Assembly (NCBI RefSeq): GCF_002813755.1 | Contig: NZ_CP018061.1 | Location: 1,044,001-1,108,000, forward strand | Length of the DNA: 64,000 nt | Direction of reading: 5' to 3' | DNA from: Enterococcus mundtii | Lineage (GTDB): Bacteria > Bacillota > Bacilli > Lactobacillales > Enterococcaceae | Part shown: one piece after another, positions 25,495-37,799 of the stretch | Position numbering within the stretch: position 1 is the stretch's first letter | Layout of the letters: each line of letters opens with the position of its first letter | Made by a program: the position numbers and the translations under genes | Notes under the pieces: generated by a model | The model's input: the letters and a program-made list of their open reading frames with translations, nothing else | What the model was told of the DNA's origin: nothing | The model's database searches: none

Positions 25495-26160
25495 TCAATC
25501 TATATATGAATCTTCCAGAGGCTCTAATTGATTGACTGTTGGGGATGGAGCTGTGATTTTTTTGAAAGGATTAGCGAAGCGGAAGTACTTCACTTTATTC
25601 AATGTATAAGATAAAATTGAGCAACTCAAAAGAGTATAGGCAAAATGCGTAAAATCCAAATACAACAAAGACACAACTAAAATCCCAAACGTGATAACAA
25701 ATAGACTTTTCCCGATATTCACATGATAATATTTTTCAATTGCTTGATAAACGATATCTGTTCCGCCAGTGCTGCCCCCAAAACGAAAAACTAAGCCACA
25801 ACCGATTCCCGAAAGAATGCCAGTCATTAGACTATTCACTAAAAGATTTCCAACAGCAAAGTGGACATTTAAATTTTCCCATACATGCAAGAAGAAGACT
25901 AGAGAAAATGTTCCGACGATCGTTCGAATAAATGCATGTTTTCCAAAAATAAACAAGGAAATCAGCAATAAAGGTAAATTTATGATCAGTGAGGTGATGG
26001 AAGGCGCAAAGCCAAATAAATGATTAAGTAAAAGAGCAATTCCTGTGACACCACCGTCAGCTAATTTTGAAGGGAGATTGATTCCGGTTACCGCTAATCC
26101 ATAAAGAGCAGCCCCCAAAATAATTCCACATAAGTCTAATAAAAATTTTACTTGTTTCAT
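25495..26160 (-). CDS. YitT-family membrane protein without C-terminal DUF2179
   Basis: Integral membrane protein of the YitT/YczE-like (DUF161) family, role unknown. Motifs: INLPSKLADGGVTGIALLLN near residue 28 and VFRFGGSTGGTDIVYQ near 124, both typical. About five to six membrane helices. At 221 aa it is shorter than the usual two-domain members because the DUF2179 tail is missing; the C-terminus instead ends in an acidic stretch. ATG 26160 follows AAAGAAAAGAGG on the minus strand. Confidence 0.85.
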   Translation of the reverse strand: MKQVKFLLDLCGIILGAALYGLAVTGINLPSKLADGGVTGIALLLNHLFGFAPSITSLIINLPLLLISLFIFGKHAFIRTIVGTFSLVFFLHVWENLNVHFAVGNLLVNSLMTGILSGIGCGLVFRFGGSTGGTDIVYQAIEKYYHVNIGKSLFVITFGILVVSLLYLDFTHFAYTLLSCSILSYTLNKVKYFRFANPFKKITAPSPTVNQLEPLEDSYID

Positions 26161-26474
26161 CTCTAACCTCTTTTCTTTTTGAAAATTTTCAGCAATCTTT
26201 ATATTACACTGAACGACTCTATAAATTCAATAGGTAAATAGAAAAAAATATACATAATGAAGCATATTTAATTTCGGTCAATCACTCCTAGTAAAACAAT
26301 CATTTAAATCAAAAATGATTCTCTGTAAAAAGATGTAGTGCATAATTTAGGGGATAAAAAAAGAGTGAATAAAAGAGCGTGATAAATAAAAAAATATATT
26401 TAAAGATAAAAAAACATAAATTATTTTATCAAATTTAACGATTATGATGTTAAAACAACCGATTTTTACTTTTT

Positions 26475-26574
26475 TGGTCACTGACACACAACTTAAAGTA
26501 TAATAATTATTGAACAAGCCAGTAAACAAGTATCTCCCCCACGAGATTTTAAAAGTTACTGGCTGTTTTTTTTT
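26475..26574 (+). ncRNA. Candidate small RNA with C-rich loop
   Basis: TATAAT at 26499-26504 (with TGGTCA at 26475-26480, spacer 18) would start RNA near 26511. The next 60 bases fold into one hairpin: outer stem AGCCAGTAA (26517-26525) with TTACTGGCT (26556-26564), an inner stem ATCTC/GAGAT (26532-26536, 26543-26547) and loop CCCCAC. Nine T residues follow at 26566-26574. No ORF fits. Promoter plus self-contained terminator suggests a short RNA of about 60 nt; it is not a known family that I recognise. Confidence 0.5.
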
Positions 26575-26595
26575 GTTCAAAATTCCAACTTCTAC

Positions 26596-26645
26596 TTTAC
26601 AACGGGAACGATTGTTCGTATAATAAAAGAGCGAACAATTGTTCG
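26596..26645 (+). promoter_or_regulatory. Promoter with two LexA-type boxes
   Basis: TTTACA (26596-26601) and TATAAT (26619-26624) are exactly 17 bp apart. GGAACGATTGTTCG (26605-26618) fills the spacer and CGAACAATTGTTCG (26632-26645) lies just after the -10; their centres are 27 bp apart. Both match the Gram-positive LexA/DinR consensus CGAACRNRYGTTYC closely, with the second a perfect dyad. A repressor bound here would block RNA polymerase at both ends of the -10. Confidence 0.8.
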
Positions 26646-26671
26646 GTATAAAATAATAGAGGTGATCAGAG

Positions 26672-26887
26672 ATGCAATCAATGAGACGTTTTGGTGCGAT
26701 GTTGTTGATTTTATTTTTTGGAATTATTATAGGTAATTATGGGTTACAAACAGCATTATTGATTTTTTTACCTTCGTTTGTATTATGGTTTGTGATGTGG
26801 GATGAAAAAAAGTATCGACAAAATGAACGAAAACGCAGGTATGAAGAAACCTTCTATCAACATAGAGCTACGTATGATTCAAAATAA
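26672..26887 (+). CDS. Small membrane protein under LexA-type control
   Basis: A 71-aa protein with two hydrophobic stretches (GAMLLILFFGIIIGNYG and TALLIFLPSFVLWFVMW) and a very polar basic C-terminus (KKYRQNERKRRYEETF). Positive charges on both ends suggest a hairpin with both termini inside. AGAGGTG precedes the ATG. I do not recognise the family. Its promoter carries two LexA boxes, so it is probably SOS-induced; small SOS membrane peptides in other Firmicutes (YneA, SosA) block cell division, but there is no sequence similarity I can see. Confidence 0.75.
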   Translation: MQSMRRFGAMLLILFFGIIIGNYGLQTALLIFLPSFVLWFVMWDEKKYRQNERKRRYEETFYQHRATYDSK

Positions 26888-26902
26888 CTAAATACAAAAA
26901 CA

Positions 26903-26949
26903 AAACTTGCAATCACTTCTCACCATCTAGTCGATTGCAAGTTTTTTTT
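26903..26949 (+). terminator. Terminator after SOS-type membrane gene
   Basis: AACTTGCAATC (26904-26914) pairs with GATTGCAAGTT (26933-26943) and a T tract follows. It makes the small gene monocistronic. Confidence 0.92.
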
Positions 26950-27016
26950 AAAACAACTTAGTTGGGGATTTACTTCGCTATGTTTATACTTAAAGGAGAA
27001 CAGAAAGGAAGGTCAT

Positions 27017-28555
27017 ATGAATACGTTTATCGAAACGCTCAATGAGAGAAAAGAAGAATTATTCGCAGCAACATTTCAGCACTTATCTATTTCATTGATT
27101 GCATTATTGATTGCCGCAGTAATTGCGATCCCACTTGCTATTTGGGCAGTCAACCATAAAAGAATGGCAGAATTTTTGTTACAAGTAACGAGTGTACTGC
27201 AAACCATTCCCTCACTTGCACTTTTAGGATTATTGATTCCATTTGTAGGGATCGGCACTTTACCGGCGTTGATCGCCTTGATTTTATATGCCTTATTACC
27301 AATATTTCAAAGCACTTATATAGGGTTAGCAGAAATCGATCCATCAATCGAAGAAGCAGCAGTTGCTTTTGGGATGTCTCGTTTTCGAAGATTGATCAAA
27401 GTAGAGTTACCCATCGCGCTGCCTGTCATAATCTCAGGTATCCGCACTGCGTTGGTATTGATCATTGGGACAGCAACATTAGCAGCCTTGATCGGTGCAG
27501 GCGGGCTAGGAACATTTATCTTGTTAGGGATCGATCGGAATACACCTGTTTTAACTTTGATCGGCGCAATCAGTTCTGCCTTGTTAGCCATTGTTTTCAG
27601 TAGCTTGATCCGTCTATTACAACACTTGAAACCTCGTTATACGATGATCACTTTAGGCTTGATTTTGACTTTAGTCGCAGGTGCTTCCATATATCAAACT
27701 GGTTTCTTGAAACAAGAGAAAATCACGATTGCCGGTAAGCTTGGTGCAGAACCAGATATATTGATCCAGATGTACAAAGGGTTGATCGAAGAAGAAACCG
27801 AAGCGGAAGTCGAATTAAAACCGAATTTCGGCAAAACGAGTTTTTTATTCAGTGCTTTAGAAAACAAACAAATCGATATTTATCCAGAGTTTACTGGAAC
27901 AGTATTAGAGAGTTTGGTTACAGTTCCTGAATCAGTCAAGGACCAAAAATTAACCAAAGAAGAAACTTATCATGAGGCCAATAAACTGTTAAATGAACAG
28001 TTCTCAATGACACTTTTAAGTCCGATGGCTTATCAAAACACATATGCTCTTGCTGTTAAACGTGACTTTGCGGATGAACACCAATTAAAATCAATTTCTG
28101 ATTTAGCTAAAATCGAGAATCAAATCAAGGCAGGATTCACGTTAGAATTTATCGATCGTGCGGATGGGTACAAAGGGATACAGGAACTTTATCAGTTAGA
28201 TTTTCCGAGTGTCCAAAGCATGGAACCTAGTTTACGTTATCAAGCAATAAATAATGGCGATGTCAATGTTGTGGATGCCTATTCGACCGACAGTGAACTG
28301 AAACAATACGATTTAGTCGTCCTAGAAGATGATCGGGGATTGTTCCCTACGTACCAAGGCGCACCATTGATGAATGAAGATTTTGCCAATGACCATCCAG
28401 AAGTCGTGGCTGCTCTAGAGAAACTTAGCGGTAAAATAACTGAGGAACAGATGCAAACGATGAATTATCAAGTAAATGTCGAGAAAAAACAACCAGCTGA
28501 AGTGGCAAGACAATTTCTGGTTGACCAAGGGTTAGTGAAGGAGGGTAACAATTGA
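27017..28555 (+). CDS. ABC transporter permease fused to substrate-binding domain (OpuC/EgtU type)
   Basis: A 512-aa fusion. Residues about 1-215 form the OpuCB-like permease with the coupling loop [21 protein letters not shown]; residues about 235-512 form an OpuCC-like binding domain ([50 protein letters not shown]). Such fusions import glycine betaine, choline, carnitine or ergothioneine (EgtU). The substrate cannot be decided here. Start ATG 27017 follows GAAAGGAAGG. The stop overlaps the TTG of the ATPase gene by four bases. Confidence 0.9.
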
Positions 28556-37426: not shown

Positions 37427-37472
37427 ACGTTAAAGATACTTTTTTTAGAGTTGTTTTTTCAAGGAAAATCAC

Positions 37473-37501
37473 TTGAAAAACGGAACGTTTGTTCGTATAA
37501 T
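37473..37501 (+). promoter_or_regulatory. Promoter with LexA-type box in spacer
   Basis: TTGAAA (37473-37478) and TATAAT (37496-37501) are 17 bp apart. GGAACGTTTGTTCG (37482-37495) fills the spacer up to the -10. The placement is the same as at 26605-26618, so both promoters likely answer to LexA. Confidence 0.78.
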
Positions 37502-37523
37502 GGTGATGAGGGGAGAGATGACA

Positions 37524-37799
37524 ATGGAAAGAAAATATGGCACGGTCTCAAAAATCAGAACGATCAAACTAGGGGAACGACCACTGATCCGTTTTACTTT
37601 AGGGTCAGAGAATTGCTTGATTGCTAATCATAGTCTTAATTTTATTGCCGATGTCGATGAAGGAATGAAGATATTTGTGAAAGGCTACTATAATAACCGT
37701 AAGCAATTTGTCGTCAAAGACTACACGGTATTAGAAAAACCAAACATTGTTGTCGCTTTTGAAAATAGTCTCTTCCCTAAACAGAAGATCATCAAATGA
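37524..37799 (+). CDS. Small OB-fold-like protein under LexA-type control
   Basis: A 91-aa soluble protein. The pattern of strands (YGTVSKIRTIKLGERPLIRF, then CLIANHSLNFI, DEGMKIFVKGYYNNRKQFVV, KDYTVLEK) resembles an OB-fold nucleic-acid-binding domain, but that is inference from pattern only. ATG 37524 is well spaced from GAGGGGAG; upstream in-frame starts lie inside the promoter. A LexA-type box in the promoter suggests DNA-damage induction, which would fit a repair or single-strand-binding accessory. Family not recognised. Confidence 0.72.
   Translation: MERKYGTVSKIRTIKLGERPLIRFTLGSENCLIANHSLNFIADVDEGMKIFVKGYYNNRKQFVVKDYTVLEKPNIVVAFENSLFPKQKIIK

Follow-up and report, generated by a model that had tools for sequence, protein, structure and literature searches.

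A second, faster-evolving copy of a lexA-linked two-helix membrane protein family in Enterococcus mundtii, with a promoter predicted to be under SOS control

The window analysed here, a 64-kb stretch of Enterococcus mundtii DNA, holds on its forward strand a short gene whose promoter is built around two LexA-type boxes. A 17-nt spacer separates the −35 element TTTACA (26596–26601), of which TTTAC is invariant across 99 aligned promoters of the gene's family, from the −10 element TATAAT (26619–26624). The last 14 bases of that spacer are occupied by box 1, GGAACGATTGTTCG (26605–26618), which agrees with nine of the ten fixed positions of CGAACNNNNGTTCG and is conserved in the family. Box 2, CGAACAATTGTTCG (26632–26645), agrees with all ten, begins 7 bp past the −10 element and, at a distance of 27 bp from box 1, lies where transcription is expected to start. 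TTTACA-17-TATAAT scored 11/12, the best of eight promoter-like matches in a region where 4.8 of that kind are expected after shuffling. Downstream, a putative ribosome binding site, GAGGTGA (26659–26665), precedes an ORF of 71 aa (26672–26887), and an intrinsic terminator hairpin followed by T's (26902–26945; −17.2 kcal/mol, z −7.7) closes the unit. By hydropathy, the product has a first hydrophobic helix at about residues 7–24 (26690–26743) and a second at about residues 25–43 (26744–26800) that runs on into a basic tail, with the signature WDEKKY (26798–26815) at the inner end of helix 2. The initial annotation had described one box in the spacer, another just past the −10 element, and a small two-helix membrane protein with basic ends and its own terminator; all of these features, including 71 codons and a strong hairpin, were found in place.

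Just upstream of the gene, on the same strand, lies a small-RNA-like element (26475–26575) with a promoter-like TGGTCA-18-TATAAT (10/12), a hairpin carrying UCUCCCCCACGAG and an intrinsic terminator (−19.7 kcal/mol, z −5.2). The UCUCCCCCACGAG motif occurs in 15/15 genomes of the genus versus 0/43 others searched, and in 14 of the 15 it falls within 1.5 kb of an opuC-type gene. Alignment of 14 copies of the element gave 18 pairs, four of them with two-sided changes. The element had no match in Rfam, and the one match to its motif in open-access PMC text was unrelated Mesorhizobium work.

A single LexA-type box would mean little here, since boxes with up to two mismatches occur in the window at background level (21 versus 20.8 expected) and the exact GAACNNNNGTTC pattern shows no genome-wide enrichment (one strand has 32 sites, versus 41 for the reversed pattern). 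The paired arrangement is above background. Pairs 14–60 bp apart with both boxes at 8/10 or better are expected 0.25 times per random 64 kb, pairs with both at 9/10 or better, as in this gene, were seen in none of 60 random 64-kb sequences, and the window holds one single pair, that of the 71-aa gene.

The protein belongs to a family that a profile search recovered from 102 of the 105 genomes of the window's taxonomic family. A single-sequence search also matched 3/3 genomes of a neighbouring family, probably that of Vagococcus. Among 91 database relatives, the rows that give an organism name Enterococcus or Vagococcus (many give none), and 39 of 40 genome-collection loci were from Enterococcus, the other being an unclassified Lactobacillales MAG. 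The closest named loci were those of E. mundtii Pe161 and CVM N55263 (97% protein identity); the genome of the window is an assembly of 3.5 Mb in two contigs from the same genus. Three of the 105 genomes (G027, G093 and G097) gave no family match, and a fourth, G021, gave a weak match with a stop and nothing else. In G021, G027 and G093 no family gene stands beside lexA; the G097 contig stops at that point. These four genomes with lexA but without an intact family gene suggest that its function is dispensable or replaced in them.

Across 60 aligned sequences, R5, L14, P34, W43 and D44 are invariant and R6, G17, G21, W39, E45 and Y48 nearly so (E45 and Y48 at 90% or more). In 104/104 loci, the window copy among them, helix 2 ends in the pattern [WF]...WD[ED], and RR near the N-terminus was present in 90/104. 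From the same 60 sequences AlphaFold2 built, with moderate confidence (pLDDT 72.6, pTM 0.41), a helical hairpin with helices at residues 3–22 and 25–69. Basic residues occur at both ends of the window protein and none occurs between the helices, so both ends are predicted to lie in the cytoplasm. Taken with the model, this makes a membrane helical hairpin a very probable product. Pfam gave nothing above cut-off and NCBIfam no match. A Pfam hit to MFS_1 (E 5e-4, 19.5 bits against a cut-off of 33.4) was rejected as generic hydrophobic helices, and Ninjurin-1 fragments, which alone appeared in a PDB sequence search (E 0.65–0.92), were likewise set aside, leaving no PDB relative and no homologue with a known function. 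A plasmid search returned no match, and a search of viral contigs gave 22 pattern matches and 0 relatives.

The genome of the window also carries a paralogue (G000:C1:1218111-1218314), 62% identical to the window protein, which immediately follows lexA and has the same orientation; lexA adjacency is a property of the paralogue and not of the window copy. The paralogue's promoter has the same layout, with TTTACA, a box in the spacer, a −10 element and a second box 27 bp from the first. Around it, ynzC/DUF896 is divergent on the far side of lexA and apt is convergent (names read from translations). The comparison was extended to 104 loci from 101 genomes and 15 genera. Sixteen genera had a match, that of the weak G021 match being omitted, as were six secondary matches that are prophage genes (L178–L183), three further weak secondary matches in G088, G089 and G114, and three loci of a neighbouring family (L022, L023 and L025). 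In this set, lexA is directly upstream on the same strand in 76/104 loci, and apt is downstream and convergent in 81/104. The 28 loci with no lexA within 1.5–1.7 kb comprise three window-type copies and 25 others, 24 of which have apt beside the family gene; in the four lexA-remote genomes that were checked (G015, G016, G022 and G023), lexA lies elsewhere in the genome.

The same gene neighbourhood turned up in the only direct match of the window protein in the phage collection, a 3.6-kb record named Listeria phage LM 4-11-1 (OR847331.1) that carries apt, a family gene, lexA and ynzC. It was rejected as a phage; with identities of 78–95% for lexA, apt and ynzC, it is by these comparisons an enterococcal chromosome fragment.

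Far stronger evidence than these chance estimates for the window comes from conservation of the box pair. In 100/104 loci a pair (each box at 8/10 or better, 20–40 bp apart) was found no more than 160 nt from the start, with a spacing of 27 bp in 96, 28 in one and 29 in three. Three further loci (L131, L132 and L137) have the pair farther upstream, at 181–320 nt, again 27 bp apart, which brings the total to 103/104 and the 27-bp spacing to 99/104. By comparison, such pairs occurred in 2/615 neighbouring segments and 1/2080 shuffles. The exception, L154 in genome G074, has no box pair and starts 28 nt past the lexA stop; it apparently belongs to the lexA operon, where the lexA operator can serve it. 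Among the 99 promoters with 27-bp spacing, whose rows are related so that the counts are not independent, there is little or no variation in the −35 element, the −10 element and most positions of the half-sites. The centre of box 2 is variable and that of box 1 fairly conserved. Most boxes are one base off the palindrome, box 1 ending in ATTCG in 75/99 promoters and box 2 having A instead of G as its second base in 69/99. The three window-type promoters keep the half-sites and vary in the central bases. The three loci left out as belonging to a neighbouring family likewise have two boxes, with a spacing of 27 bp in L023 and of 33 bp in L022 and L025. A separate peculiarity of L131, L132 and L137 is a long leader between the box pair and the start (box 2 at −293, −293 and −181, respectively), which in L131 and L132 holds a repeated stretch.

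The initial annotation had proposed LexA control of the gene and had made that proposal depend on conservation of the boxes among orthologues. The pair passed this test, and its conservation strongly supports the proposal. In the same genome, 9/10 boxes precede lexA (CGAACATTTGTTTG), recA (CGAATATTTGTTCG) and uvrB (CGAAAGTATGTTCG), and the operator of the window gene resembles these and lies over its promoter, as expected of a LexA regulon member. Exact boxes also occur just 5′ of two kinds of ORF, judged by eye to encode a dinB-like polymerase and an addB/rexB-like nuclease. Many other exact GAACNNNNGTTC sites fall within large ORFs and are probably not operators. The generic nature of such a palindrome, together with its lack of enrichment in the genome, could be taken to mean that the boxes are bound by another repressor, for example a TetR-type protein. 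This is highly improbable given the similar boxes at lexA, recA and uvrB and the many homologues that adjoin lexA and, almost without exception, have a box pair themselves. Moreover, the 25 non-window loci without nearby lexA keep the box pair in 25/25 cases (one of them, in G016, encodes a protein nearly that of E. faecalis, P0036), and this retention away from lexA suggests that control in trans is under selection. Placement of the window gene under LexA (SOS) control, as read from its operator, is therefore close to certain. In an undamaged cell, LexA dimers on the two boxes, one in the spacer and one at the start site, would keep the promoter tightly shut. Upon DNA damage, RecA-triggered self-cleavage of LexA would allow the strong TTTACA-17-TATAAT promoter to fire a monocistronic, terminated transcript.

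Beyond what the initial annotation had seen, lexA has a neighbour throughout the family, and the window gene is its second copy, which evolves faster. This copy shares 57–63% identity with those linked to lexA in its genus (alignment A1) and forms one clade of three genomes with support of 100/100, its exact place in the genus not being resolved. Its branch measures 0.69 changes per column; in these three genomes the value for the copies linked to lexA is 0.06. Comparisons among the three genomes gave 2, 2 and 4 nonsynonymous codons for the window copy versus 0, 1 and 1 for the lexA-linked copy, small counts that may indicate a less constrained coding sequence on which selection is possibly relaxing. 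The gene occurs between yitT and an opuC-type operon in 3/15 genomes of the genus. In the other 12, the opuC-type gene has no 9/10 boxes in the 1500 nt upstream, and yitT adjoins it in seven. Since both the gene and its boxes are absent from these 12, gene and promoter most likely arrived as a unit. The lexA-linked copy would be ancestral, and the window copy a duplicate that moved with its promoter into the yitT–opuC interval in the E. mundtii lineage.

Faster evolution, more nonsynonymous changes and presence in so few genomes of the genus are also what might be expected if the window copy were a decaying duplicate with no role of its own, the lexA-linked copy alone being of importance. This is somewhat unlikely, as the frame, promoter, both boxes and terminator sequence are intact in all three genomes, the half-sites are conserved though the central bases change, and a further protein, 87% identical, exists in unclassified enterococci (P0009). 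A separate role for the window copy, which would add dose or act on a diverged target, has about an even chance.

What such a protein might do is suggested by its neighbourhood. In the work on SosA (PMC6851548), a location next to lexA pointed to a division inhibitor on the ground that similar synteny occurs in Bacillus subtilis, B. megaterium and Listeria monocytogenes. SosA of Staphylococcus aureus (77 aa) is, like the enterococcal family, a small, SOS-controlled, lexA-adjacent membrane protein of a coccus. It differs in its extracellular C-terminal part, its single predicted helix and the divergent orientation of its gene relative to lexA (PMC6851548), whereas the enterococcal proteins have two hydrophobic segments, carry positive charge at both ends, both of which are predicted to be inside, and are encoded on the same strand downstream of lexA. 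YneA of B. subtilis is likewise an SOS-induced small membrane protein encoded near lexA (synteny in PMC6851548); it stops division, reportedly by acting on FtsW, and has a LysM domain (PMC13396833). The enterococcal family has no LysM domain, no NCBIfam match and two helices. YneA has one helix. The view in the initial annotation that the protein is not related to YneA or SosA thus holds by domain search and predicted topology. In B. subtilis, yneA sits between lexA and ynzC and has about 100 codons, and the enterococcal lexA–ynzC gap of 75 loci (123–196 nt in 71 and 265–335 nt in four) is too short to hold such a gene.

Position, regulation, size and topology make it fairly likely that the family is a membrane effector of the enterococcal SOS response, its most probable action being that of a division brake. 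The 71-aa hairpin would lie almost wholly in the membrane, with the conserved WDEKKY and the basic tail at the inner face. It would bind some membrane-embedded part of the machinery for division or cell-wall synthesis and so delay septation until repair is done, making it the enterococcal counterpart of YneA and SosA. Considering the single predicted helix and extracellular part of SosA and the LysM domain of YneA, neither target nor mechanism need be shared with them.

A small, hydrophobic protein with basic ends and a double-operator promoter would also suit an SOS membrane toxin of the TisB kind, one that depolarises the membrane and sends damaged cells into dormancy, with the divisome not being the target. 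The title of PMC11575346 calls TisB a dormancy-inducing membrane toxin, and toxins of this type share small size, SOS control and membrane location with the enterococcal family. The family differs from them in being nearly universal in its taxonomic family and in having no antitoxin RNA candidate. Toxin genes are typically patchy in distribution, and the two-helix family is kept in nearly all genomes, mostly linked to lexA. The small-RNA-like element upstream is unlikely to be an antidote, since each of the 15 genomes of the genus has it, even the 12 that lack the window copy. An Rfam search of 26100–27050 gave no credible antitoxin RNA, though an antisense RNA of a new kind may exist; hits to LhrC around the terminator (25.1 bits against a gathering threshold of 110, E 0.27) and to DUF805b (E 0.68) were rejected. 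Conservation of R5, P34, W43 and D44 would also seem to exceed the needs of a plain pore former. A toxin of this kind is thus an improbable explanation.

It is also conceivable that the protein is an SOS accessory or regulator, that is, a membrane-bound helper adjusting, for example, LexA, RecA or a membrane protease, and no division effector. Direct placement downstream of lexA in most loci, and in one genome apparently on the lexA transcript itself, would fit such a helper. The 28 loci (three of them window-type) with no lexA within 1.5–1.7 kb speak against it, as does the sequence, in which there is nothing like a DNA- or RecA-binding domain, and this reading is unlikely as well.

Should the family be a division brake, it would extend a pattern in which each Gram-positive lineage has, next to lexA, a small membrane brake unrelated to those of the others. 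In any case the family supplies one nearly universal candidate gene per genome in clinically important cocci, with a promoter that predicts tight SOS control. Among the matches listed in open-access PMC literature, there was no description of the two-helix family, no account of enterococcal coupling of DNA damage to division, and no data on LexA binding or damage induction for the family.

Relatives of the family are also found in phages. All 19 members of alignment A1 match phrog_1270, a group of phage proteins with no assigned function (the phiFL1A gp11 type; best E 1.5e-9), and the controls (reversed and hand-scrambled versions and two other small ORFs of the window) gave no match to it, the scrambled control instead giving phrog_944 at E 0.059. 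A profile–profile comparison of the host and phage families gave 99.0%, a figure that is partly circular since the host family was the query that brought in four of the five phage rows, one of which led to the fifth; the PHROG match is free of that circularity. These profile matches indicate kinship between the family and phrog_1270, which temperate phages of enterococci encode in their early region. The prophages of G016, G034, G086 and G118 have genes that match phrog_1270, and in most of 12 phage records the G016 protein shows 86–94% identity to phiFL1/2/3 proteins, which belong to temperate phages of E. faecalis. Like the host family, the phage proteins form hairpins whose second helix ends in a (W/Y)DE motif. 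They differ in lying in the early region, whereas host copies are mostly beside lexA. In phiFL1A, gp11 (L218:4699-4902) lies between a Rha-like regulator and recE/recT. No LexA box was found within 300 nt of the six prophage genes (L178–L183) or of phiFL1A gp11. A search with the phage profile returned 116 proteins, all of those with an organism being from Enterococcus except one labelled Caudoviricetes; the identifiers of the chromosomal family are absent from the 116, so that the two sets stay apart at that sensitivity.

Small two-helix proteins of this sort in enterococcal prophages and phiFL phages fall in or close to phrog_1270 in five of seven cases, and their genes lie near regulators and recombination or replication genes. 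Two prophage proteins were left off the phage alignment: L182, a weak match in G003 that matched neither PHROGs nor phage records, and L179, which matched phrog_1592 instead.

The existence of such relatives in phages suggests that viruses exploit the same handle on the cell. A broader, tentative proposal, with less than an even chance of being right, is that the enterococci and Vagococcus replaced YneA by an unrelated two-helix SOS brake, of which temperate phages carry early-region relatives without LexA boxes. If this were true, phage and host would share one membrane tool with different switches, the host using LexA during repair and the phage its own early promoter upon induction, either to keep the cell from dividing or as a competitor of the copy in the host.

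The window also holds a second likely SOS gene (37470–37799, + strand), encoding a protein of about 91 aa that is OB-fold-like by eye, with a box, GGAACGTTTGTTCG, in the spacer of TTGAAA-17-TATAAT. Relatives of this protein were found in 28/58 genomes, and a box at 8/10 or better lies within 120 nt in 18 of the 30 loci examined, two of which, L195 and L197, were cut and out of register. Weak relatives (38%) of the protein are also present on the second contig of the same genome.
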